A DNA stretch of 64,000 nucleotides, taken from contig CAIVDV010000058.1 in NCBI GenBank assembly GCA_903904755.1, positions 1 through 64,000 on the forward strand. Direction: 5' to 3'. The notes below the pieces were generated by a model, which did not search any database, was not told where the DNA came from, and saw only the letters and a program-made list of their open reading frames with translations. Positions 3,433 through 51,785 of the stretch are shown piece after piece; positions within the stretch are counted from its first letter, which is position 1; every line of letters starts with the position of its first letter. This stretch comes from an uncultured Acidobacteriaceae bacterium (GTDB lineage: Bacteria; Acidobacteriota; Terriglobia; Terriglobales; Acidobacteriaceae). A program made the translations under genes and the position numbers.

Positions 3433-4737
3433 GTGAAAGGCCCGGACTTGGCCCAGATGCCCGCTTCCCCCGCTGAGACTTTTGCCGAACCCGGCCGCCG
3501 GCCGCACGGAATTGCCCGGCCCGCGCTGATTGCGCTTGTCCTGCTGACCGGCCTGAACCTGCTCAACTACCTCGACCGATACATCCTTCCCGGCGCGCAA
3601 CCGCTCATTCAGCAGGAGTTGCACGCCTCTGACGAGAGCATGGGCGCGCTCACGACCGCGCTGTTTGTCACCTACATGCTCACCGCGCCGCTCACCGGCT
3701 GGCTGGGCGACCGCTTCCGGCGCAAGCCGCTCATCGTCGCCGGGGCAACGCTGTGGAGCGTGGCGACGCTGTTCACCTTCTGGGTGCACAGCTATGACTC
3801 GCTCTACTTCCGCCACGCGCTGGTGGGGGTTGGAGAAGCTACTTTTGGGATTTTTGCGCCGGCCGTTATCTCCGACTTCTTCCCGCCGCGCGACCGCAAT
3901 CGCATCCTCAGCATCTTCTACCTCGCCATTCCGGTGGGCGCGGCGCTGGGTTACCTCGTCGGCGGGCAACTGGGGCAGCACTTTGGCTGGAGAATTCCTT
4001 TTGTCGTCGGCGCAGTGCCGGGGCTGCTGATTGCCGCAGCCTATGCCATCTGGGCCTCCGAGCCGAAGCGCGGCAACTCGGAAGCGCCTGTGCAGGCGAA
4101 GGCGGAAAAGACATCCGTGCTCGGGGGGTATGCGAACCTCTTCCGAAACCCTGGCTACCTATGCGCAACCCTGGGCATGGCCATGATGGTCTTCACCATG
4201 GGCGGCATCTCCAACTGGATGCCCACGTTTCTGCATCGCTTTGCCGGGATGGATGTGGCAAAGGCGGGAACGGTGCTGGGCGGCATTACCGTGGTGGACG
4301 GAGTTGCCGGCACCTGGCTGGGCGGATGGCTCGCCCAGCGCTGGCTCCGCACCAACCACCGGGCCCTCTATCTGCTGTCGGCCTGGAGCATGTTCCTGAC
4401 GCTGCCGCTGGCCGCGCTGGTCTTCTTCGGTCCGCCGGCGTGGGCGGTGCCTGCTCTCTTTGCCGCCGAGTTCTTCCTCTTCCTCAACACCGGTCCGCTG
4501 AACGCCGCAATTGTCAACTCGGTCTCAGCCCCGGTGCGTTCCACGGCGATTGCGCTCAATCTGTTTCTGATCCACCTGCTGGGCGATGCGCCCTCGCCAA
4601 AGATTATCGGGATGATCTCAGACCATGCGAACCTGCGGCTGGGGCTGGGTCTGACGCTGGTGACGCTGGTGCTGTCGGGCGTCCTGCTCTTCTTTGGAGC
4701 GCGGTTTGCCCCGGTGCTGGAGCCGGAGGCGCGCTAG
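3433..4737 (+). CDS. MFS transporter, spinster-like
   Basis: 434 residues with about 12 hydrophobic segments. TM1 ends in LNLLNYLDRYILPG, the 'NYxDR' signature of the spinster-like MFS branch. It is followed by the MFS loop motif GWLGDRFRRKPL between TM2 and TM3 and by GVGEATFGIFAPAVISDFFPPRDRNR in TM4-5. Later segments end at about residue 425. The substrate cannot be read from the sequence; eukaryotic relatives move lipids or organic acids, bacterial ones mostly are uncharacterised. The start may be the GTG at 3433 or the ATG at 3457; neither has a strong ribosome site. It stands alone between terminators. Confidence 0.85.
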   Translation: MKGPDLAQMPASPAETFAEPGRRPHGIARPALIALVLLTGLNLLNYLDRYILPGAQPLIQQELHASDESMGALTTALFVTYMLTAPLTGWLGDRFRRKPLIVAGATLWSVATLFTFWVHSYDSLYFRHALVGVGEATFGIFAPAVISDFFPPRDRNRILSIFYLAIPVGAALGYLVGGQLGQHFGWRIPFVVGAVPGLLIAAAYAIWASEPKRGNSEAPVQAKAEKTSVLGGYANLFRNPGYLCATLGMAMMVFTMGGISNWMPTFLHRFAGMDVAKAGTVLGGITVVDGVAGTWLGGWLAQRWLRTNHRALYLLSAWSMFLTLPLAALVFFGPPAWAVPALFAAEFFLFLNTGPLNAAIVNSVSAPVRSTAIALNLFLIHLLGDAPSPKIIGMISDHANLRLGLGLTLVTLVLSGVLLFFGARFAPVLEPEAR

Positions 4738-4839
4738 GCCGGCTGCATTGATTGTGAGCGGCGGACAGGATTTGGCGTCTATCAGCTAGAGGTATCGCGG
4801 CCGCCCTGCCCCTGAATCCCCAGTATGTGAGGCAAAACT

Positions 4840-5625
4840 ATGTTCTGCAGTTCCCTGAATTCCCTTGCCGGGCGAAGAAACTCGTTCCGCCTGGTTGCGC
4901 TCCTGGTTCTCTCTCTGCTTGCCGGCCGAGGCGCTTTGGCCCAGCCGGAGGCGAAAGTCGAAACCGCCCAGCAGAAGACGAGCGACGCTGCCGCGGGTGA
5001 AAGCTATGAGACCTTTACCCTGAACAACACCACCGACCAGGGCGATATCCGCGAGGTTGCCAACGACCTGCGCAATATGCTGCCGCAAGCGCGCATCTAC
5101 CAGATGTCTGCACAGGGAGCAATTTCGGTTGCGGGCACCGCGCGTGAAGTCCAACTGGCGCGCAGGATTGTGGCGGAGCTGGATCGCCCTCGGCGCAGCT
5201 ACCGGCTCACCTATTCGCTCTATGAGCTGGAGAACGGCAAGCGCGTCTCGAGCCGCAGCTTTACGCTGAACGTGGCCCCGGGGCAGCGCGCATATTTGCG
5301 CCAGGGCTCGCGGATTCCAATCCTGACAGGCGCCAGCCCAACAGCAGATAAGGGCGCACATGTGCAGTACATCGATATCGGGCTGAATCTGGAAGTCTCG
5401 ATTGAGGGCGCGCCGGGCAGCCTCCGCCTCCACACCAAGCTGGAGCAGACCAGCCTGGGAGACGAACCTTCCGGCTTGGGCGCGCAGGACCCGGTGATTC
5501 GCCAGTCCGTCTTTGAGGAAGCGAGCGTGCTGACGCCGGGCAAGGCGATTCTGCTGGGGGCGTTTGCGGCTGCCGGCGGCCCAAAGACTGCAGAGGTCGA
5601 AGTTGTCTCCGAAGTAATTCTTTAG
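4840..5625 (+). CDS. Secreted protein with secretin N-domain-like and C-terminal beta region
   Basis: 261 residues. The N-terminus has a signal peptide (LVALLVLSLLAGRGALAQ, ending about residue 35). Residues about 55-115 (ETFTLNNTTDQGDIREVANDLRNM, QGAISVAGTAREVQLARRIVAEL) look like the N1/NolW-type ring-building domain of secretins. The rest (YRLTYSLYELENGKRVSSRSFTL ... IDIGLNLEVSIEG ... EEASVLTPGKAILLGAF) resembles the beta-rich secretin-type C-terminal domain in miniature. It is much too short for a GspD/PilQ channel. It may be an envelope accessory protein; the role is unknown. No type II secretion genes lie nearby. Confidence 0.75.
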   Translation: MFCSSLNSLAGRRNSFRLVALLVLSLLAGRGALAQPEAKVETAQQKTSDAAAGESYETFTLNNTTDQGDIREVANDLRNMLPQARIYQMSAQGAISVAGTAREVQLARRIVAELDRPRRSYRLTYSLYELENGKRVSSRSFTLNVAPGQRAYLRQGSRIPILTGASPTADKGAHVQYIDIGLNLEVSIEGAPGSLRLHTKLEQTSLGDEPSGLGAQDPVIRQSVFEEASVLTPGKAILLGAFAAAGGPKTAEVEVVSEVIL

Positions 5626-5639
5626 CTGCAAACGCGGAA

Positions 5640-5677
5640 ATGCCCCATTCCCCGGTCGGTCACAGGGGATGGGGCAT
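5640..5677. terminator. Bidirectional hairpin terminator
   Basis: ATGCCCCATTCCCC (5640-5653) pairs with GGGGATGGGGCAT (5665-5677) with one bulge. It sits between the convergent genes ending at 5625 (plus) and 5723 (minus). A similar ATGGGG-closed hairpin occurs at 35039-35068. Confidence 0.65.
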
Positions 5678-5722
5678 CGACATTTCGGAACTCACTTTGA
5701 GCAGATGAAAACGGACTGGGGG

Positions 5723-5902
5723 TCAGGAAACCCGAGCCACCTGGGTCTGGCCCTGGGGCTTGGATTCGGCGGTCTGCAGGCCGGCATGCCAGCGCATCAG
5801 CCCGAAACCGGCCTTGAATGCGCCGTACGCCAACCACACGCCCAAACCCATCGACGCCAGAGAGGCGCATACCAGCATCACCAGATTTACGAAGTCCTGC
5901 AT
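5723..5902 (-). CDS. Small membrane protein, hypothetical
   Basis: 59 residues from the ATG at 5902, which has GGGAAG about 8 nt upstream; an in-frame TTG at 5908 is less likely. Residues 4-38 are strongly hydrophobic (FVNLVMLVCASLASMGLGVW then AYGAFKAGFGLMRW), giving one long or two short membrane segments. A polar tail rich in Q/T/K follows. The GC-skewed codon positions and the terminator immediately after it support a real gene. It is divergent from uvrA with a 235-bp shared upstream region. Function is unknown. Confidence 0.65.
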   Translation of the reverse strand: MQDFVNLVMLVCASLASMGLGVWLAYGAFKAGFGLMRWHAGLQTAESKPQGQTQVARVS

Positions 5903-6000
5903 CGTCAACTTCCCAGCTTTGAAATCGCAACCGACGGTTGAACCTGCGTCGCCGCCGGAGTACCGCGTTGCATTGGATTGTCTCAGAGAACAGGCCCGCG

Positions 6001-6030
6001 TTGACCCCCCTCTCTATTGGCAAATAGAAT
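6001..6030 (+). promoter_or_regulatory. Sigma-70 type promoter for uvrA
   Basis: TTGACC (6001-6006), an 18-bp spacer and TAGAAT (6025-6030) lie 108 bp before the uvrA ATG. No convincing LexA-type palindrome is seen in the 235-bp divergent region, so SOS control is not supported by sequence. Confidence 0.5.
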
Positions 6031-6137
6031 ACCCCCATGGGGTTGCGCCGCTTCTCACTATCCGAGAGGCCCTGTGCACAACTCACTATCGCGTCTCCGG
6101 AGCCTTTCCGGCAGCGATTCCCTTCCCCTGAATCCTT

Positions 6138-9115
<2,978 letters not shown>

Positions 9116-9119
<4 letters not shown>

Positions 9120-10078
9120 GCGGCGACGAAAACGAGTTGAGCCCGCAGGACCATCAGCCAACGCCGGAGCCGGCGCCCACGAGTGATTGGCTTGCAGCTC
9201 CTGGACAGGACATCAACCCGGAAGAAGAGGGCGCACTCCCGCTGCCCAACATCCCTGCCCCATGGCCTGAGCGCACGCCTTCCCCACTGGACGCTCTCTT
9301 CTTCCTCCTGTTTCTCTTTCTCGGCTTCCTGCTCAGCACAGCAGCGCTGGCGCTGGCGCTCCACTGGCACCTGTGGGGACTGAAGGATTTTGCCGCCGCG
9401 GCCACCGATACCCGCGTCGCGCTGGGCACGCAGTTGCTTCTCTATGCCAGCGCGCTGGCCGGGGCCGTTCCGGTACTGCGAACCTTGTGGGGCAAAGGAT
9501 TCTTCACCGGTCTGCACTGGAATGTACTCACGGCCGTGCGGCGCTGGGGATGGCTGGTAGCAATTGCCGTCGCCTGCAACCTGCTGGCCATTGCCAGCGA
9601 TTCCCTACTGCCGTTTCCCAAACACGCGGCCATCGACAAGATGTTTGCCACGCCGCGCGACGCATGGATGCTGTTTGTCTTTGGGGTAACGGTTGCTCCG
9701 TTTTTTGAAGAGATGATCTTCCGCGGATTTCTGCTGCCTGCCACCGCCTCGGCGCTGGACTGGTGCCGGCAGCGTCTTACCGGGACCGGGCCCATGGGTA
9801 CCGATGAGGCCGGCAACCCGATGTTCAGCCGTACCGCGATGGTGCTTGCCGCCATCCTGGTCAGCGCGCCATTTGCCGGAATGCACGCGGCACAGGTGAA
9901 CCAGTCGTGGGGACCGCTGCTGCTCCTGTACACGGTCTCGCTGGTGCTGTGCGCGGTGCGCCTCAAGGCCAGGTCACTGGCGGCGAGCACACTGGTCCAT
10001 GCGGTCTACAACTTCCTGCTGTTTTCGCTCATGCTGCTGCAAAGCGATGGCTTCCGCCATTTGGACAAGCTGCAGTAG
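9116..10078 (+). CDS. CPBP-family intramembrane glutamic/metallo endopeptidase (Abi)
   Basis: 320 residues. A proline/acid-rich cytoplasmic N-terminus (about 1-58) precedes 7-8 membrane segments. The CPBP (Rce1-like) motifs are present: EEMIFRG with Glu198, Glu199 and Arg203, FAGMHAAQ with the conserved His near residue 257, and HAVYNF near the C-terminus. Bacterial members cleave prenylated-like or membrane substrates, and some give self-immunity to bacteriocins; the substrate here is unknown. The ATG overlaps the uvrA stop (ATGA), so it is translationally coupled to uvrA, an unexplained pairing. Confidence 0.88.
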
Positions 10079-10136
10079 GCAGGCGCGTCGCTTGGAGCGG
10101 ATTGACAGCGGGTTGGGTTGGTCCTAACCTCGCACT

Positions 10137-10376
10137 ATGGATGTTTCGTTTCCCAGTGAACTCGATTTCAGGCTCTCTAAGCTTGCCGCCCAGCAGGGCC
10201 GTGACCGGTCTGCGCTGATTCTGGAGGCGGTTGAGCGGTTGGCTGATTACAACGAGTGGTTTGCCTGGGAGGTCGAAAGAGGCTTGGAAGAAGCTCGCAT
10301 GGGCCAAACCTTGCCCCACGAGGAAGTTGGCATCCAACTTCAAACCTATTTGGCTTCCAGGCTCTTCCACCTGTGA
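10137..10376 (+). CDS. Ribbon-helix-helix (ParD/CopG-like) protein, orphan antitoxin
   Basis: 79 residues. The start MDVSFPSELDFRLSKLAAQQGRDRSALILEAVERLADY is a standard RHH DNA-binding module: a beta strand, then two helices with a 'RDRSALI' turn. Next comes an acidic, amphipathic toxin-binding region (EWFAWEVERGLEEARMGQTLPHEEV). This architecture belongs to ParD/RelB-type antitoxins, which usually are followed directly by a ParE toxin. Here only 40 bp separate it from the convergent hydrolase gene, so no toxin gene is present. It is either a solitary remnant or a repressor reused for another role. Confidence 0.7.
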   Translation: MDVSFPSELDFRLSKLAAQQGRDRSALILEAVERLADYNEWFAWEVERGLEEARMGQTLPHEEVGIQLQTYLASRLFHL

Positions 10377-10416
10377 CCTGCTACCGAGTGCCTTTCTGAC
10401 AGTCCCGCAGATCCTA

Positions 10417-11694
10417 TTACCGAAACAGCCACGTCAGGTTGTCGTTATCCCAGTCCAGAACAAAAGCAATCGTGAAGGCTGCCGACCAGCCAAAGGCCTT
10501 CGCGCCTGCGCCTGCGCCGCTCTTTGAGTCGTAATACTCACGCAGCGACGGATCCCGCGCAACCCAGCCCAGCAGCGTCTCCCGCATCGCTGCGGCGGGG
10601 CCGGTGTGGCCGTACTGCTGCAGCCCTTTCAACGCGAAAAACGATGTGTTCAGCCACGCAGGCCCGCGCCAGTAGGCGCCGCTCTTGTACGCAGGCGTGT
10701 CATAGGCAGCGGTGGGCATTCCGGGAAAGAACTTCTCCGTGGACGCTGCCAGCTTCGCCATGCGCGCGGCGCGTTCGGGGCTGGCGATGCGGACAAACAA
10801 CGGCATGAATCCTGCCGGCGAGAGCGCAGGGCCGGGCTTGCCCGTCACCCGGTCGCGGTCTACGTAAAAGCCAATCTGCTCGTCCCACAGGCGGTCGTTG
10901 ATGCGTGCGGCAAGCTCGGTGGCCATCTGCTGCCAGTGCGCGGCATCTTCCGGCTTCTTCAGGCGCTGCGCAAGGTAGGCCATGGCGCGGTAGTGCGAAA
11001 CCATGTAGCAGTTCAGGTCGATGGCAAACAGGCGGTGGTCGTCTGTCTTCGCCTCACGATAACCGTTGTCGAACCGGATGGAATCATCCCACCCCGATTC
11101 CGCGCCAATATCGGAGCCGGAGTAGTAGAAGAGACCATCCGCCTTGCCGCCGTGCTGCAGGTACCAGTAGTCGCCCAACCGCTGCAAGCGAGGGTACATG
11201 GCGGCAATCCAGCGGTCATCCGGCGCGCGATGATCCACCACGGCCACCGCCCAGGCCATTACCGGCGGCTTGGTGATCGTGGTGACCATGCGGCCATCTT
11301 CGTAGATGACGTCAGGCAGGCTGCCGTCAGGCAATTGCTTGCTGAAGAGAATTTCCACCTGCTGGTGGGCCAGCTCCCCATCCCAGTGCGAGACGGCCAT
11401 GGCATGAAAGGCGGCGTCCCAGTTCCAGATGCCGCGATAGGTGCCCAGCGAGGGCATGATGCCGAGATAGGGGTCCCATGCCTTGCCGGAAACTTCATTG
11501 CCCAGCAGCGTTGCCTGCGCGCGAGCCACCAGTTGCGCATCCCTCGGGCTCACCCGATGCGTCACCTCGTTCAGCCAGGCGGATGCGGCCGCAGCCGGTG
11601 CCTTCAACGGCTGTGCCAGCCCGGTCCGGCCGGATGCCGCCGCCACTGCCACGAAAACAACCACCACACGAATCACTGAACGAAGAAACACCAT
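10417..11694 (-). CDS. Secreted trehalase/GH63-like (alpha/alpha)6 glycoside hydrolase
   Basis: About 425 residues from the ATG at 11694, chosen because a signal peptide (MVFLRSVIRVVVVFVAVAAASGRTGLAQ) follows it; a frame open to 11745 adds 17 polar residues. Motifs of the MGH1/GH63/trehalase (alpha/alpha)6 fold are visible: GIWNWDAAFHAMAVSHW, ESGWDDSIRFD (probable general acid Asp), YWRGPAWLNTSFFALKGL and REYYDSKSGAGAGAKAFGWS near the C-terminus. Such enzymes act on alpha-linked gluco- or manno-disaccharides, including mannosylglycerate. The exact substrate cannot be told. It is convergent with the RHH gene and divergent from the IQM-like gene. Confidence 0.85.
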   Translation of the reverse strand: MVFLRSVIRVVVVFVAVAAASGRTGLAQPLKAPAAAASAWLNEVTHRVSPRDAQLVARAQATLLGNEVSGKAWDPYLGIMPSLGTYRGIWNWDAAFHAMAVSHWDGELAHQQVEILFSKQLPDGSLPDVIYEDGRMVTTITKPPVMAWAVAVVDHRAPDDRWIAAMYPRLQRLGDYWYLQHGGKADGLFYYSGSDIGAESGWDDSIRFDNGYREAKTDDHRLFAIDLNCYMVSHYRAMAYLAQRLKKPEDAAHWQQMATELAARINDRLWDEQIGFYVDRDRVTGKPGPALSPAGFMPLFVRIASPERAARMAKLAASTEKFFPGMPTAAYDTPAYKSGAYWRGPAWLNTSFFALKGLQQYGHTGPAAAMRETLLGWVARDPSLREYYDSKSGAGAGAKAFGWSAAFTIAFVLDWDNDNLTWLFR

Positions 11695-11983: not shown

Positions 11984-13192
11984 ATGTCCTACCTCATCCT
12001 GCGCGAGATTGACTCCAACCCAAAATTCAGATCCAGGAATATCCTCGGCACCTACAGCGGAGAAGAAGGGGTCGAGTCGGATCTACGCCTGAATGTACTC
12101 AGCGGCCTGGTCGCTCGCCTCAAAAAATCCAACCTCGCTGCCGACGAGTTCAAACGCCAGCACATTGCCGGCTCCAACCAGGCTGTGGGCGTCGCCTGGT
12201 CGGCGTCTGACCGTACCGGCAAAGCCCCAGTCGTCGGCCCCGGTCAAAGTGGAGGCGGAACGGTCAAGGATCTGGTCGCATGGCATACCCAGGCACAACG
12301 GAATGTCGTCGAAGGAGACCTGCTCAACGCGGAAGTTATCCGCGTTCGCCGATGGATTACCCGCCAGGGCGCCAAGCTGACTCCCCAGGGACAGGTCATC
12401 TGGAGTGTCAGCCACCGCCAGGTGGAATATGACCACGACCTCGCCCGCCAGAACATGACCAAGGTGGAGTTCCGGGGCGGCAAAATGTACACCTCTGCGG
12501 GCAAGCTGCTCGATACCTCCGAAATGGTCACTGTCTTTTCCGGCCCGGGGTACGCCATCTACGTCCTCAGCAAGGAGGGCAATCTGCACGTCGGCTCGCA
12601 CGCCATCTCCAACCGCCACCACTCCTCCCTGCTGGCAGGTGCGGCCACCAACTGCGCCGGCGAAATGCGGGTCGTCAACGGCGAGCTCAAGCACCTCTCC
12701 AACAAAAGCGGCCATTACACGCCGGACGCCTTCAACCTGCTCAAGATGCTCCAGGTGCTTGAAGACGGCGGCATCCCGCAAACCTTCACGCTCGAGTCTC
12801 TTGGTGCAAACTTCACCTCGGTCCGCTATGCCAGCGTCGACGCCTTCATGCGCGAAAACCTCTTTGACGACAACAGCTATCTGCTCTCCAAAGCCGCCCT
12901 GGCCCGCACCGTCGTGGTTCCAGTTGTCGCTTCGGCGCCCCAGAATTCCAGCGGTGGGTATTACCAGCCCTACTCCCGCCCCAACTTCGCGTCGGCCCCG
13001 AACCAGAACGTCTACAGCAAGCCAAATCTTGCTCCCGATCCCGCCTCGGGCTACATGCACTACAGCAAGCCTGCGGATGTCTCAGGACCCGAGGCACCCG
13101 GCACATCCACGGTGACCTACTATGTAACCCAGGGCGTGGGTACTACGCCTGCCGGGTACAACAATGTTGACCTCGTCATCCGCTATGTCTGA
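11984..13192 (+). CDS. IQM-like module protein with Pro/Tyr/Ser-rich tail, function unknown
   Basis: 402 residues from ATG 11984, with GGAG 5-6 nt upstream. Residues about 184-275 (VFSGPGYAIYVLSKEGNLHVGS, HHSSLLAGAATNCAGEMRVVNG, LKHLSNKSGHYTPD) match, from memory, a module of plant IQM calmodulin-binding proteins and of assorted bacterial proteins: a 'HSSxLAG..xxAAGE...NG.....SGHY.P' pattern. Residues 318-402 are low-complexity and rich in P, S, Y and N (QPYSRPNFASAPNQNVYSKP). There is no signal peptide or membrane segment. The stop overlaps the next gene by 8 bp. Its biochemical role is unknown. Confidence 0.8.
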   Translation: MSYLILREIDSNPKFRSRNILGTYSGEEGVESDLRLNVLSGLVARLKKSNLAADEFKRQHIAGSNQAVGVAWSASDRTGKAPVVGPGQSGGGTVKDLVAWHTQAQRNVVEGDLLNAEVIRVRRWITRQGAKLTPQGQVIWSVSHRQVEYDHDLARQNMTKVEFRGGKMYTSAGKLLDTSEMVTVFSGPGYAIYVLSKEGNLHVGSHAISNRHHSSLLAGAATNCAGEMRVVNGELKHLSNKSGHYTPDAFNLLKMLQVLEDGGIPQTFTLESLGANFTSVRYASVDAFMRENLFDDNSYLLSKAALARTVVVPVVASAPQNSSGGYYQPYSRPNFASAPNQNVYSKPNLAPDPASGYMHYSKPADVSGPEAPGTSTVTYYVTQGVGTTPAGYNNVDLVIRYV

Positions 13193-15632: not shown

Positions 15633-15725
15633 CTCCTCCCCTCGATATTTTGCGGAAAAAATGATTCGCAACCTCATGCTCGTAACACTAGAATCATGTT
15701 CCCTGACAAAGGGACAGGAGGTTAC

Positions 15726-16001
15726 GTGCCAAAGTTTCTCATCGAACGGAATATTCCCGGTGCAGGCCAGTTGACGGCTGAGCAGTTGCAGGGAATCTCA
15801 CAAACATCGTGCGGCGTGCTGCGTTCGCTTGGACCACAGATCCAGTGGGTTCAGTCCTACGTGACGGCCGACAAGGTCACCTGCGTGTATATTGCGCCGG
15901 ATGCCGAACTGATTCGCGAACATGCCCGCCTCGGGGGCTTCCCCGCCGATGCCGTGCTGCAGGTCCACACCATCATCGATCCGACAACCAGCGAAGCATA
16001 A
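15726..16001 (+). CDS. DUF4242 small protein
   Basis: 91 residues from a GTG at 15726, chosen because an AGGAGG ribosome site lies 4-5 nt upstream; a frame open to 15696 lacks one. The sequence PKFLIERNIPGAGQLTAEQLQGISQTSCGVLRSL ... YVTADKVTCVYIAPDAELIREHARLGGFPADAVLQVHTIIDP is the compact ferredoxin-like DUF4242 family (nickel-responsive or SCO4226-like proteins). The biochemical role is not established. Its stop lies 27 bp before the xerC remnant. Confidence 0.88.
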   Translation: MPKFLIERNIPGAGQLTAEQLQGISQTSCGVLRSLGPQIQWVQSYVTADKVTCVYIAPDAELIREHARLGGFPADAVLQVHTIIDPTTSEA

Positions 16002-16027: not shown

Positions 16028-16144
16028 CTACCTGGCCCGCGGATGCGTACGGTCGTACACCTGTGTCAACTGCGACGTGGTCAGCTGCGTGTACCGCTGC
16101 GTCGTCGACAGCCGCTCGTGGCACAGCAACTCCTTGATTGACCG
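16028..16144 (-). pseudogene. Remnant: last 38 codons of a xerC-like recombinase
   Basis: Read on the minus strand, this encodes [18 protein letters not shown] then [20 protein letters not shown] and a stop. It aligns without gaps to residues 292-329 of the intact XerC encoded at 16973-17089. By hand count, 98 of 117 bases are identical; 15 of the 19 differences are synonymous and only 4 residues differ. The similarity stops sharply at 16145. It therefore comes from a once functional xerC relative and not from a recent copy of the neighbour. It lies 19 bp beyond the NYN gene's 3' end and, with the intact xerC end, brackets that gene. Confidence 0.8.
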
Positions 16145-16162
16145 ACCCCTCACGCAATCCCC

Positions 16163-16843
16163 TCATTGGGACGCCAGCCCCTTGCCTACAGCAGGATTCG
16201 GGCACGTCGAGCGAACTCCGTCTACGTGCTCATGCAAAGACGGGTGAACTGGGTGCCACATCGGGTCGAGAATGAAATCGGTTCCCTCACGGCGCGCCAA
16301 CTTGGCCGCAGGAACGAAATCGGAGTCTCCAGCTACAAGAACAATCTGGTCTACTTGCTTCTTGAAACATAGCGAAGCAATATCTAACCCGATGCGCATA
16401 TCCACGCCCTTCTGCGCAGCAACATACTCAAAATCCCCATCCTGCAACGCGTCAAACTGAAGAGTTCCGCCCAGCAGTTGCTTGAGTCGTCCCTCTTTCA
16501 GCTTCCACTCTGAGTTGTCCATCAGATGCCCAAGTCGCAACGCCACCTTACGCAACTTCCGAAGTTCGTCATGCAAGGCCAGCCGAAATATTGCCTGAGG
16601 CGTCTTGGCAAAATTCACTGACTTTCGAGTGATTGGGAAATGAGCCAGCTTCTGCAGCGGGGGACAGTCATAGAAGAAAATACGATATAAATCGTGGCGA
16701 TGGCTCTTCTCTTCCAAGTGCCCAAGCGCTAACTCAAATACTGTCTTGGCAACAACCTGGGGACTGGTACTGTCCTTGCCCGGATAGCAGGCTCTGAACC
16801 TGCGCAGCAGGAAACCTCCGTCGATGAGAATCGCAGTTGGCAT
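16163..16843 (-). CDS. NYN-domain (LabA/PIN-like) putative ribonuclease
   Basis: 226 residues. It has the NYN/DUF88 core: AILIDGGFLLRRF with Asp8, KGVDMRIGLDIASL with Asp148 and Asp154, and LVAGDSDFVPAAKLAR with Asp173 and Asp175. Together these make the acidic metal pocket of PIN-like RNases. The C-terminus (DPMWHPVHPSLHEHVDG) is as in LabA-type proteins. Codon third positions are less GC-rich than in neighbours (TTA, GTA, ACT, CAT are common). It lies between the xerC remnant and intact xerC, with its own 129-bp upstream region. This looks like an acquired gene; target RNA is unknown. Confidence 0.85.
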   Translation of the reverse strand: MPTAILIDGGFLLRRFRACYPGKDSTSPQVVAKTVFELALGHLEEKSHRHDLYRIFFYDCPPLQKLAHFPITRKSVNFAKTPQAIFRLALHDELRKLRKVALRLGHLMDNSEWKLKEGRLKQLLGGTLQFDALQDGDFEYVAAQKGVDMRIGLDIASLCFKKQVDQIVLVAGDSDFVPAAKLARREGTDFILDPMWHPVHPSLHEHVDGVRSTCPNPAVGKGLASQ

Positions 16844-16942
16844 GAAATGAAAAAGCCCTCGATTTCTGCCCCCACAGGATCGATTGTGGACGGCTTACTC
16901 TCGGGGCTTAATAACCTCATGCTTGCACAACTTCAGCTAGCA

Positions 16943-16962
16943 TGTCAACCAACTGGTTGACA
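16943..16962. promoter_or_regulatory. 20-bp perfect palindrome (operator or recombination site)
   Basis: TGTCAACCA-AC-TGGTTGACA is a perfect inverted repeat with 9-bp arms and a 2-bp centre. It lies 10 bp beyond the xerC stop and about 100 bp upstream of the NYN start. The arms contain TTGACA on both strands, so it could overlap the -35 region of the NYN promoter. A repressor operator, or a binding site of the recombinase that placed the NYN segment, are both possible. Confidence 0.5.
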
Positions 16963-16972
16963 AACGATGCCC

Positions 16973-17962
16973 CTACTTCGCCCTCGGATGCGTCCGGTCA
17001 TACACCTGCGTCAACTGCGTCGTCGTCAACTGCGTATACCGCTGCGTCGTCGATAACCGCTCATGGCCCAGTAACTCCTGAATCGAACGCAAGTCCGCTC
17101 CCTCTTCCAGCAGATGCGTGCCAAACGCGTGCCGCAGCGTATGCGGATGCACATCCGACGACAGCCCGCGCAGCACCGCAATATGCTTCACAATCCGCGC
17201 CACGCTCCGCGTCGACAGCCGCCCGTCTCCCCGCAAATGCAGATTCAGCAGCAGCGCCTGGCTCTCGCGCGCCGCAGCTGCCAGCTTGGCTTCGCGCTCG
17301 CCCATATACGCGCGGATGGCCTCGGCAGCCGCATCCCCCAGCGGAACATACCGCTGCTTCTGCCCCTTGCCGCGCACCAGTATCGCCTCATTGGCCCAGT
17401 GAATATCGCCCAGGTTCAGCCCGGTCAGCTCCGCGTTACGAATGCCGCAGCCATACAGCAGCTCAAAAATAACCGCATCCCGCGCTGGCCAGCTTGCGTT
17501 CTCTTCATCGATGGAGTCAACCACCTGGTTCATCTGCTCAATCGATGGAACACGTGGAAGATGCTTCGGCAGCTTCGGTGTCGAAACCAGTGACGCAACA
17601 TTCTGTTCCACGTGACCAAAACGCGCCAGCCACTTGAACCAACTGCGAATGGACGCCAGCGCACGCGCCGCCGATGCTTTCGAAAGACCGCGCTCATAGA
17701 GCGTGCCAAGGTACGCGCGGATGCGGGTGTGCTCGATGGCGCGGGGCTCAGTCTCTTCTCCCTGCACCTCACAAACCCACGCGGCAAAGGCCCGCAGCTC
17801 GCGCTCGTAGGCCCGGATGGTGTGCGGAGAGGAACCACGCTCGTTGGCCAAAACCGCAAGGTATGCCGTAACCAGTGCATCCAGCGACTGGCGCTGCCGG
17901 GGCATGGAGAGCGACTCGGCAGCGGGCCGCGACTGCGGTATCGGCTGGGTCAGGGCGCTCAT
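16973..17962 (-). CDS. xerC: Tyrosine recombinase XerC
   Basis: 329 residues. An N-terminal SAM-like core-binding domain (about 22-115) is followed by the catalytic domain. All catalytic residues are present: Arg175 ([12 protein letters not shown]), Lys200 ([13 protein letters not shown]), His274 and Arg277 ([12 protein letters not shown]), His300 ([10 protein letters not shown]) and nucleophile Tyr309. The length and the 'RGKGxKxRxVPLG' turn fit XerC of the chromosome-dimer resolution system, which acts at dif with XerD and FtsK. The start overlaps the upstream xerD stop by 4 bp. The last 117 bp are duplicated in diverged form at 16028-16144. Confidence 0.92.
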
Positions 17963-18966
17963 GAAGCTTCCTTCTCCAGCATGGGATGCAGATCACGCTC
18001 AACTTGCTCGTCTTCCAGAACAGAGCGCTCCAGGGCCAGGCTGCGGGCCTGCGCACGGGGATGGTGCATGCGGTGCACAGCCTTCAGCCGGCCAAGCGCA
18101 AGATGCGTGTAGACCTGCGTTGTGGAGATATCGGCGTGACCCAGCAGAATCTGGACGCTGCGCAGGTCGGCACCATGCTCCACCATGTGGGTCGCGCAAC
18201 TGTGGCGCAGCATGTGCGGGCTGGCGTTGGCGCCATAAACCTTCACCATCATCCACACGGCCTGGCGCGTCATGGGCATGCCGCGAAGCGACAGGAACAG
18301 CCGGGAGGCATCGGCCCTGTGGGCGCGAACCCCTGCCCGGGCCAAATGCGGCCGCCCCTGGCGAAGATACACATCCAGCGCATCCAGCGCGGCCTTGCCC
18401 AGTGGCACAATCCGCTCCTTGTCGCCCTTGCCGCGGACCATCACCCGGCCCAGGTCCAGCGCAAGATCGCTCACCGAAAGCCCCGTAACCTCACTCACCC
18501 GCAGTCCGCCGGCATACAGCAGCTCCAGAATCGCGGAGTCCCGCAACTCCGTGGCACGTGCCTGCGGATGATGCGCTGCCATCGAGGCCACCTGCAGCAT
18601 GGCGCTCACTTCGTTTTCAGCCAGCGACTTGGGCAGGACCTTCCAGGCTTTGGGGGATTCGATATTCAGCGTCGGATCGTGGTGGATGCGCCTGTCCAGC
18701 AGCAGCCACTTGTACAGCCCGCGCAGGCAGCTCAGCTTGCGGGCTGCCGAGCGGGAGTCGACGCCGTGAGCTCGCAGATGCTCCAGAAACCCGGCCACAT
18801 CCTGCTGCACTGCGGTCTGCAGCACCCCATGGCGGCCTTCCAGAAACTCGGCAAAGGTCCGCAGGTCACCAAGATAGGCCTCGCACGTGAGCGGCCGAAG
18901 ACCTTTCTCGACCCGCAGATAGGTCATGTACTCCCGCAGCAGGCCGAGATTGCCGGTATTCTCCAC
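17959..18966 (-). CDS. xerD: Tyrosine recombinase XerD
   Basis: 335 residues from a GTG at 18966. The frame stays open to 19140, but those 58 extra residues (basic, Cys-rich) do not look like the family, while the GTG start leaves the usual 10-12 residues before the [15 protein letters not shown] helix. Catalytic residues are Arg156 ([13 protein letters not shown]), Lys180 ([14 protein letters not shown]), His251 and Arg254 ([11 protein letters not shown]), His277 ([10 protein letters not shown]) and Tyr286. XerD partners XerC at dif. The C-terminus (after about residue 300) carries about 35 extra charged residues. Having xerD and xerC adjacent and overlapping is unusual compared with enterobacteria, where they are unlinked. 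Confidence 0.88.
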
Positions 18967-19283
18967 AGGCTTGATTATGGCCTTTTTCCGGACCCGCGGC
19001 GGCGACCATCGGCAGGTGTCGAACCACAGCGAACACGGAATCAAGAGGGTCACCGCCCGGCACTTGACGTGGCCCGGCTTCCGGCGTTGCGTCCGCTGGC
19101 CCTGGCACAGAACCCCCGAAGCCGGCATCCGGTTATTCATCCGGTGACAGTTTGCACAAGCTTCACACTGCCCGCATTTGCAAATCCGGGCTCATATCAG
19201 ACAATGAAATTGAGCCTAACGTTATTTCAATCGGGTTCGGTGATTTTGTCCCGGCCCGGGACGCACGTCCGGAAAGAACCACA
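18967..19283. other. Divergent intergenic region, xerD / HAD gene
   Basis: This 317-bp gap lies between divergent starts. The frame reading through it as an extension of xerD encodes an unlikely Cys/Arg-rich peptide. The right part near 19185-19250 is AT-richer and probably holds the promoter of the HAD gene; I could not assign hexamers with confidence. No RNA gene was recognised. Confidence 0.4.
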
Positions 19284-51710: not shown

Positions 51711-51765
51711 CTGCCGGTGCGCCGTGCACCGGCAGAAAAAGAGCCTGGGCGTACCGCCCAGGCTC
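51711..51765 (-). terminator. Tandem hairpins, pstS intrinsic terminator
   Basis: Reading on the minus strand after the pstS stop: GAGCCTGGGC (pair 51756-51765 with 51741-51750, loop GGTAC) followed by five T (51736-51740), then a second hairpin CTGCCGGTGC/GCACCGGCAG (51726-51735 with 51711-51720). The first is a classic rho-independent terminator in the gap between pstS and pstC. Confidence 0.85.
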
Positions 51766-51785
51766 GGAGGATTCCCGCGAGTTAC

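Follow-up and report, generated by a model that had tools for sequence, protein, structure and literature searches.

A structured RNA and an NYN ribonuclease gene inserted at the 3' end of xerC in an Acidobacteriaceae genome

In the genome of an uncultured Acidobacteriaceae bacterium (G000; 4.22 Mb in 83 contigs), the gene xerC is followed by a second, diverged copy of its own 3' end, and this raises the question of how the DNA between the two copies arrived and what it carries. The window analyzed in this study is a stretch of 64,000 nucleotides from that genome. Its minus strand carries xerD (17959..19140; Pfam Phage_integrase, E 5e-41), which forms the left flank of the site and adjoins xerC in the genus relatives read, and then, in the same order as in those relatives, an intact xerC (16973..17962) encoding 329 aa with a Phage_integrase domain (E 1.1e-43) and a SAM-like N-terminal domain. 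On the same strand these genes are followed by a 62-bp gap after the xerC stop (16911..16972), which is the putative promoter of an RNA, by a 62-nt structured RNA with a U-run at its end (16849..16910), by an NYN-domain gene encoding 226 aa (16163..16843), of which the RNA forms the leader, and by a 38-codon fragment of xerC (16028..16144), which an 18-bp junction (16145..16162) separates from the NYN stop codon. A convergent gene on the plus strand (15696..16001; PF14026, SCO4226-like or DUF4242, E 3.1e-27) lies beyond the fragment.

The fragment had been described in a first-pass annotation of this DNA as an imperfect copy of the end of xerC, and this description was confirmed. Positions 16028-16144 and 16973-17089 form an ungapped direct repeat of 117 nt with 84% identity (98/117) and a spacing of 945, and in a letter comparison the similarity is gone at once past either edge. 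The 19 differences fall in 18 codons; 15 of them are synonymous, whereas random changes would be synonymous in 25% of cases (binomial p = 1.3e-6), and four amino acids are changed from xerC to the fragment (Q295K, G299C, T315S and K329R). A recent tandem duplication, against which the annotation had already argued from the divergence, was rejected on this synonymous bias. Apart from NYN, the 0.95 kb between the copies holds no ORF of more than 70 codons and none large enough for a recombinase. A tRNA was also considered as the target in the window and was rejected, no tRNA being found within the 64 kb.

The 38-residue xerC tail was used to survey 280 genomes of the family (E <= 1e-9) and was matched in 260 of them, with a double match in only three: G000 and two members of a different genus, G150 and G167. 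In the latter two the second tail is an orphan fragment on a contig other than that of xerC (L289, G150:C132:36008-36118; L291, G167:C67:244-354) and occupies the same position, adjoining a stress-protein-like gene according to a reading of the ORFs. No RNA match was found around these fragments, and the two genomes have no NYN match at E <= 1e-10. These tails were dropped as support for the case made here.

The genus sample comprised 15 genomes including G000, and a xerC match was obtained in 13. Comparison of the syntenic xerD-xerC-DUF4242 region, which the first-pass annotation had proposed as the way to recognize an insertion, revealed an empty site in five of the 12 other xerC-bearing relatives (G001, G002, G003, G011 and G013), in which xerC is followed directly by the convergent DUF4242-type gene without NYN; a search of these five loci for the RNA gave no match. 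The other seven have neither the DUF4242-type gene nor NYN within the stretch read, the contig of G014 stopping about 260 bp beyond xerC. In the window, the fragment ends 26 bp from the DUF4242-type gene, where xerC ends in the five relatives, and therefore the outer copy stands in the native place and NYN together with the inner end constitutes the insertion. Two codon positions at which 36 of 36 relatives agree are, moreover, changed in the fragment (Q295K and G299C), as expected of a relic. The lineage of G000 has thus acquired, at xerC, a block with the structured RNA and the NYN RNase gene. The native end of xerC was left behind, as the annotation had proposed, and decays at a distance of 945 bp downstream, while a different version of this end completes xerC.

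The assignment of the two ends was also approached through the bases themselves. At the 15 synonymous differences, the base of the genus majority (ten relatives) is carried by the fragment at nine sites, by the intact end at two and by neither at four (nine versus two, one-sided sign test 0.033). Plain distances over 114 bp gave no separation: the nearest relatives match the intact end and the fragment almost equally (91 and 90 of 114 in G011, 87 and 87 in G013). G134 agrees with the intact tail at 96/114 positions and with the fragment at 88/114, and the closest match to the intact tail is G211 (99/114), in which neither NYN nor the RNA was found. Codon use was likewise of no help in telling a native from a foreign end, since the entire xerC of the window is poor in C-ending codons and its tail is inconspicuous by composition. 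The view that the fragment is the native end accordingly stands on synteny, with moderate agreement from the site-by-site comparison, and draws nothing from the distances. That the inner end (16973..17089) is foreign and came with the insert is supported by the nine-to-two count of synonymous sites, though not proven, and is not seen in the distances to G011 and G013.

The gene between the copies was confirmed as NYN by Pfam (PF01936, E 4.5e-9). Its product matches the phrog_5783 profile over residues 2-213 (E 9.9e-87), a family annotated as 'unknown function', and its AlphaFold2 model (pLDDT 93) is most similar in Foldseek to VPA0982 (2qip, E 9.6e-6), with the NYN domain of MARF1 (5yaa) at E 3.1e-4. 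Asp 8, 148, 154, 173 and 175, among other residues, are invariant in 49 NYN sequences. At E <= 1, a sequence search with a profile of seven NYN members matched none of the solved structures, PADLOC gave only a weak match (best 6.5e-6 over about 44 residues), and the protein fell under the cut-offs of NCBIfam. The window protein thus shares a sequence-family match with PHROG 5783 and a fold match with NYN (LabA-like) RNases, and on its invariant acidic residues and modelled fold it is predicted to be an RNase.

The annotation had credited this gene with its own upstream region; such a region is present, but it is not merely a promoter, for it contains the 62-nt structured RNA, an element common to eight family loci ahead of NYN. 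The window RNA folds at -25.6 kcal/mol, compared with a mean of -15.4 for shuffles (z -3.7), and two other members folded singly gave z -2.3 and -0.75. Two models were employed: R1, built from the eight family sequences, and a later R2, trained on 54 sequences that include the window RNA, which R2 matches at 59.7 bits. In the 54 RNAs, 95.8% of cells are paired versus 75.2% in shuffles, and changes on both sides of a pair occupy 162 cells versus 37.6 in shuffles and at most 20 with the partner slid, being seen in 14 of 16 pairs; the sequences were aligned to the model, and such an alignment leans towards the structure. A terminator-like U-run (at least five T within 9 nt after the helix) is present in 45 of the 54, and a -10-like hexamer (at most one mismatch to TATAAT) lies upstream of 20, versus about five in letter shuffles.

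Between the two helices of the RNA, alignments A2 and A5 have an internal loop, AGUA/GA(A), that we take to resemble the bulged-G (sarcin-ricin type) motif. In the eight A2 sequences, the two bases that follow AGUA and precede GA co-vary (A/A in two, C/C in six), but in the wider set A with C also occurs at these positions, for example in L149. A shortened R2 match elsewhere in the window (51737-51766, minus strand; 20.3 bits, E 0.005) is probably due to chance.

A search of Rfam with the window RNA returned a single match, RF03535 (TEG147), at 20.5 bits and below the gathering score of 56.1. Teg147 is listed at 60 nt in the table of bona fide S. aureus HG003 sRNAs (PMC5826253), and its expression from a genomic island is recorded in PMC3053349; the passages on TEG147 in these two sources and in PMC7779021 make no link to an NYN gene or to other phyla. 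A pattern search with the TEG147 consensus matched one viral contig (L294), where TEG147 scores 80.9 bits at 13034-13093 and an NYN gene of the same family starts at 13115. By a reading of its ORFs, L294 encodes satellite-like genes and, at one of its ends, an integrase. R2, which was built without TEG147, recovers it at 26.8 bits with filters off; with default filters, TEG147 went unreported in L248, which is the same contig as L294. The two RNAs are alike in their size of about 60 nt, their fold, the AGUA...GAA internal loop, the U-run and the place directly before NYN (in L294), although the window RNA lies far under the gathering score.

The distribution of the pair was analyzed in the best 80 of 569 confirmed NYN relatives, which served as the genome loci, so that the rates refer to the closest homologues; the closest named relatives among these 80 are MAGs called Acidobacteriaceae. 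The RNA lies ahead of NYN in 55 of the 80 loci, from several phyla (53 by R1; R2 adds L102 and L105), and in the 53 R1 loci, five of which come from genomes also used to build R1, it is separated from NYN by 3-46 nt. The remaining 25, many of them from Rhodanobacter and Dyella, gave no RNA by R1 or R2. A total of 98 viral loci were fetched, and 83 were searched with R2 after exclusion of near-duplicates and the partial L283: the RNA precedes NYN in 49 (E <= 0.1), and no RNA was found by R2 in 34. It was found beside NYN in four of ten phage and plasmid loci and not in the other six, which include two lambdoid ones, and 20 distant NYN loci (L021-L037 and L039-L041) gave no RNA match. The loci without the RNA speak against a link that holds everywhere. 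Where the RNA was found, each locus has one clear match. The NYN family itself was detected in 15 of 50,697 phage records, in 146 confirmed IMG/VR stretches and in 162 of 72,556 plasmid records, Campylobacter accounting for 134 of the latter. The RNA and NYN thus form one module, which has stayed linked in many genomes from several phyla and occurs on phages, on a satellite-like element and on plasmids; the insert in the window is such a module, with a putative promoter, and is of a kind that travels on mobile elements. The first-pass annotation had called the use of xerC as a landing site unusual; what is unusual is the module rather than xerC as such. In the literature searched, chiefly open-access, no paper was found connecting an NYN RNase with a structured RNA.

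Several individual loci deserve mention. NYN adjoins the repressor gene in phage ev099 and Proteus phage Brookers, neither of which has an RNA match; this position is the place of rexAB in lambda. In the viral contig L205, an R2 match lies downstream of NYN and not upstream (5942-6000, plus strand). At a Paraburkholderia locus (L120, 5641-5838, minus strand), NYN adjoins a C4 antisense RNA and isrK, both above the Rfam gathering score, and these neighbours suggest a prophage setting.

Within the family, close NYN homologues (62-80%) are present in six other genomes of 398, with a contig-end piece in a further one (G270); a near-identical donor of the insert was not found in this search, the best NYN being 80%. 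R1 matched 12 of 300 family genomes, 11 of them clearly (the match in G015 scores 23 bits), and seven of the 11 clear matches lie directly behind xerC (G000, G134, G270, G075, G166, G218 and G229). The order is xerD-xerC-RNA-NYN-secA in G134 and xerC-RNA-NYN in G270, where the contig ends within NYN. G075, G166, G218 and G229, which belong to one genus, have xerC-RNA-secA without a close NYN, the RNA standing alone between the two genes (L083 1501-1562, plus strand; L086 1501-1562, minus; L088 1501-1562, minus; L089 1501-1562, plus), and two of these RNAs score near 80 bits and two about 61-63. G134 has no xerC fragment behind NYN. In G094, a congener of G134, secA follows xerC with no module in between, and the module is located elsewhere in the genome; it is thus mobile in that genus too. 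Since RNA-NYN stands behind xerC in two genera of the family besides that of the window, the family may plausibly have supplied a chromosomal donor with this arrangement.

These arrangements underlie the account that we favour. The donor of the block would be a member of the family that had the module behind xerC beforehand. The block would have entered on one side by homologous recombination inside xerC and on the other by illegitimate joining next to the stop codon of NYN, an outcome that would keep xerC whole and strand the old end behind NYN. Homologous recombination at xerC would suffice because RNA-NYN is already found behind xerC in G134 and G270, and recombination inside the gene is regarded as the likeliest route. 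The first-pass proposal of an integrase-type element using xerC as its landing site is not supported by the insert, in which NYN is the only ORF above 70 codons, and recombination offers an alternative. Taken as a whole, insertion of the RNA-NYN module by recombination within xerC, with an RNase cargo restrained by its own RNA, is the best explanation, and we give it an even chance of being correct.

The main rival, which we hold to be possible if somewhat doubtful, is that the locus is the remnant of a prophage or island that carried RNA-NYN by its attachment site, integrated at the 3' end of xerC and supplied a replacement end, everything being lost later except RNA-NYN and the two attachment copies. 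Of the 83 viral loci, 30 have a tyrosine recombinase, detected with a home-made profile, no more than 600 bp from NYN, directly downstream on the same strand in 27; within that distance it occurs in only four of the 80 genome loci, one of them being xerC itself, so that an integrase other than xerC is present in three. Same-strand tRNAs end 178-521 bp before NYN in eight of the 80 genome loci (L129 and L134 being near-identical), and an integrase follows NYN in three of these eight; in two further genome loci tRNAs lie within 1.5 kb on the other strand. In L142, an exact 45-bp copy of the tRNA end, which is not a second tRNA gene, lies 5.4 kb further on, and in L127 the module stands alone between tRNA-Arg and a copy of the tRNA-Arg 3' end, while gene 3' ends are repeated in L115 (321 bp at 92%) and L147 (164 bp at 91%). 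Such repeat-bracketed modules at unrelated genes and a tRNA fit an integrative origin at least as well. Against a remnant stand the want of a second sizeable ORF between the window copies and the fact that no integrase-bearing element was seen at xerC, second tail copies being present in only two other of the 280 family genomes, without RNA nearby; the low number of genome loci with an integrase other than xerC (three of 80) also counts against it. L142 itself (4722-11274), with tRNA-Phe, the RNA, NYN, an opposing integrase and then the tRNA-end copy, looks like a complete small integrative element.

It is improbable that the module is instead an insertion unit with defined ends, the left just after a gene end and the right at the stop codon of NYN. 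Such a unit would be mobilized by an activity, trans-acting or unknown, that makes a second copy of the target's 3' end, in the manner of insertion with long target duplication. The presence of the module alone between xerC and secA in G134, compared with G094, would agree with such a unit, as would a test of direct repeats in the 168 of 177 modules that had enough flank. Repeats bracket nine of the 168 (within about 500 bp) versus ten of 914 shifted control segments from the same loci (Fisher p = 0.001; 8/167, p = 0.003, excluding the window, which was chosen for its repeat), but the p-values are optimistic, because the distances and the E-value limit were chosen once these loci had been given a first inspection. 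In six of the nine, the window counted by its full repeat, the second copy starts at most 25 bp from the NYN stop codon; in L143, where 56 identical bp follow a gene, and in L222 and L210 it starts 79, 83 and 262 bp away. The other 159 modules have no such repeat. The four viral bracketed modules have repeats of 22-52 bp, and three of these (L203, L214 and L222) reach only 22-38 bp, two being terminator-like by eye. A rule that the module sits behind co-directional genes found no support, as the neighbours have no strand preference (upstream, 40 plus versus 34 minus, and four without a call, of 78). Finally, had the xerC 3' end been duplicated in tandem, with NYN captured later and the copies diverging where they stood, two direct-orientation copies 945 bp apart would be accounted for, but this history is highly improbable, because the differences are mostly synonymous though one copy is a non-functional fragment and, among the 280 family genomes, only G000 was found with a copy beside xerC.

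Two known classes bear on the locus. Elements with tyrosine integrases use the 3' ends of genes or tRNAs and restore them. The window resembles them in having a whole target on one side and the old end on the other, and several modules elsewhere lie beside integrases or tRNAs, but the window insert is without an integrase and is less than 1 kb in total. Insertion with long target duplication is reportedly due to Nobusato et al. 2000 (Gene 259:99). The window shares with this class direct repeats (117 bp, 84%) and an empty site in relatives (five genomes). In the passages of PMC1643837 and PMC3031569 that describe the class for restriction-modification genes, a conflict-type gene likewise lies between long direct target repeats, as seen against a related genome. 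In contrast, the window copies differ by 16%, mostly synonymously, where near-identical copies, arising as the insertion takes place, are expected of the class as understood; what is repeated in the window is the 3' end of a gene, and an RNA with an NYN RNase takes the place of restriction-modification genes as cargo.

NYN would be an RNase cargo of mobile elements that probably protects against other phages, its production or activity being held in check by its own RNA. The RNA forms a terminator-like hairpin ahead of the NYN gene. This hairpin might limit read-through by attenuation, perhaps through an action of the enzyme on the leader of its own gene; alternatively, the RNA in free form might bind and restrain the enzyme, by analogy with type III toxin-antitoxin systems. 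Those systems (ToxIN-like), in which the RNA neutralizes a toxic protein, consist of a promoter, a structured RNA with a terminator and an RNase gene, are carried on phages and plasmids, and have tandem RNA repeats and a ToxN-like fold. The RNA-NYN module is similar in its order, in the U-run (45/54) and in the placement of the RNA 3-46 nt before the gene (53 loci), but it has a single 60-nt RNA without tandem repeats and an NYN fold.

All these observations may be joined in a more ambitious reading, which we put forward tentatively as rather unlikely to hold in every part. The pair would be a hitherto undescribed conflict module of two parts, a 60-nt RNA, with S. aureus TEG147 as a member, and an NYN RNase that this RNA controls by direct binding or attenuation; it would be carried by phages, satellites and plasmids across phyla and placed repeatedly, as a cassette of about 1 kb, behind the 3' ends of genes or tRNAs with a copy of the target end, xerC being one target. 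The repeated end of xerC in this acidobacterial genome leads to a conserved RNA-RNase pair. Through it, the S. aureus sRNA TEG147 gains a candidate genomic partner and a testable role, a likely conflict gene is added to those on temperate phages, and a natural case becomes available of how integrase-less modules of about 1 kb move between chromosomes.
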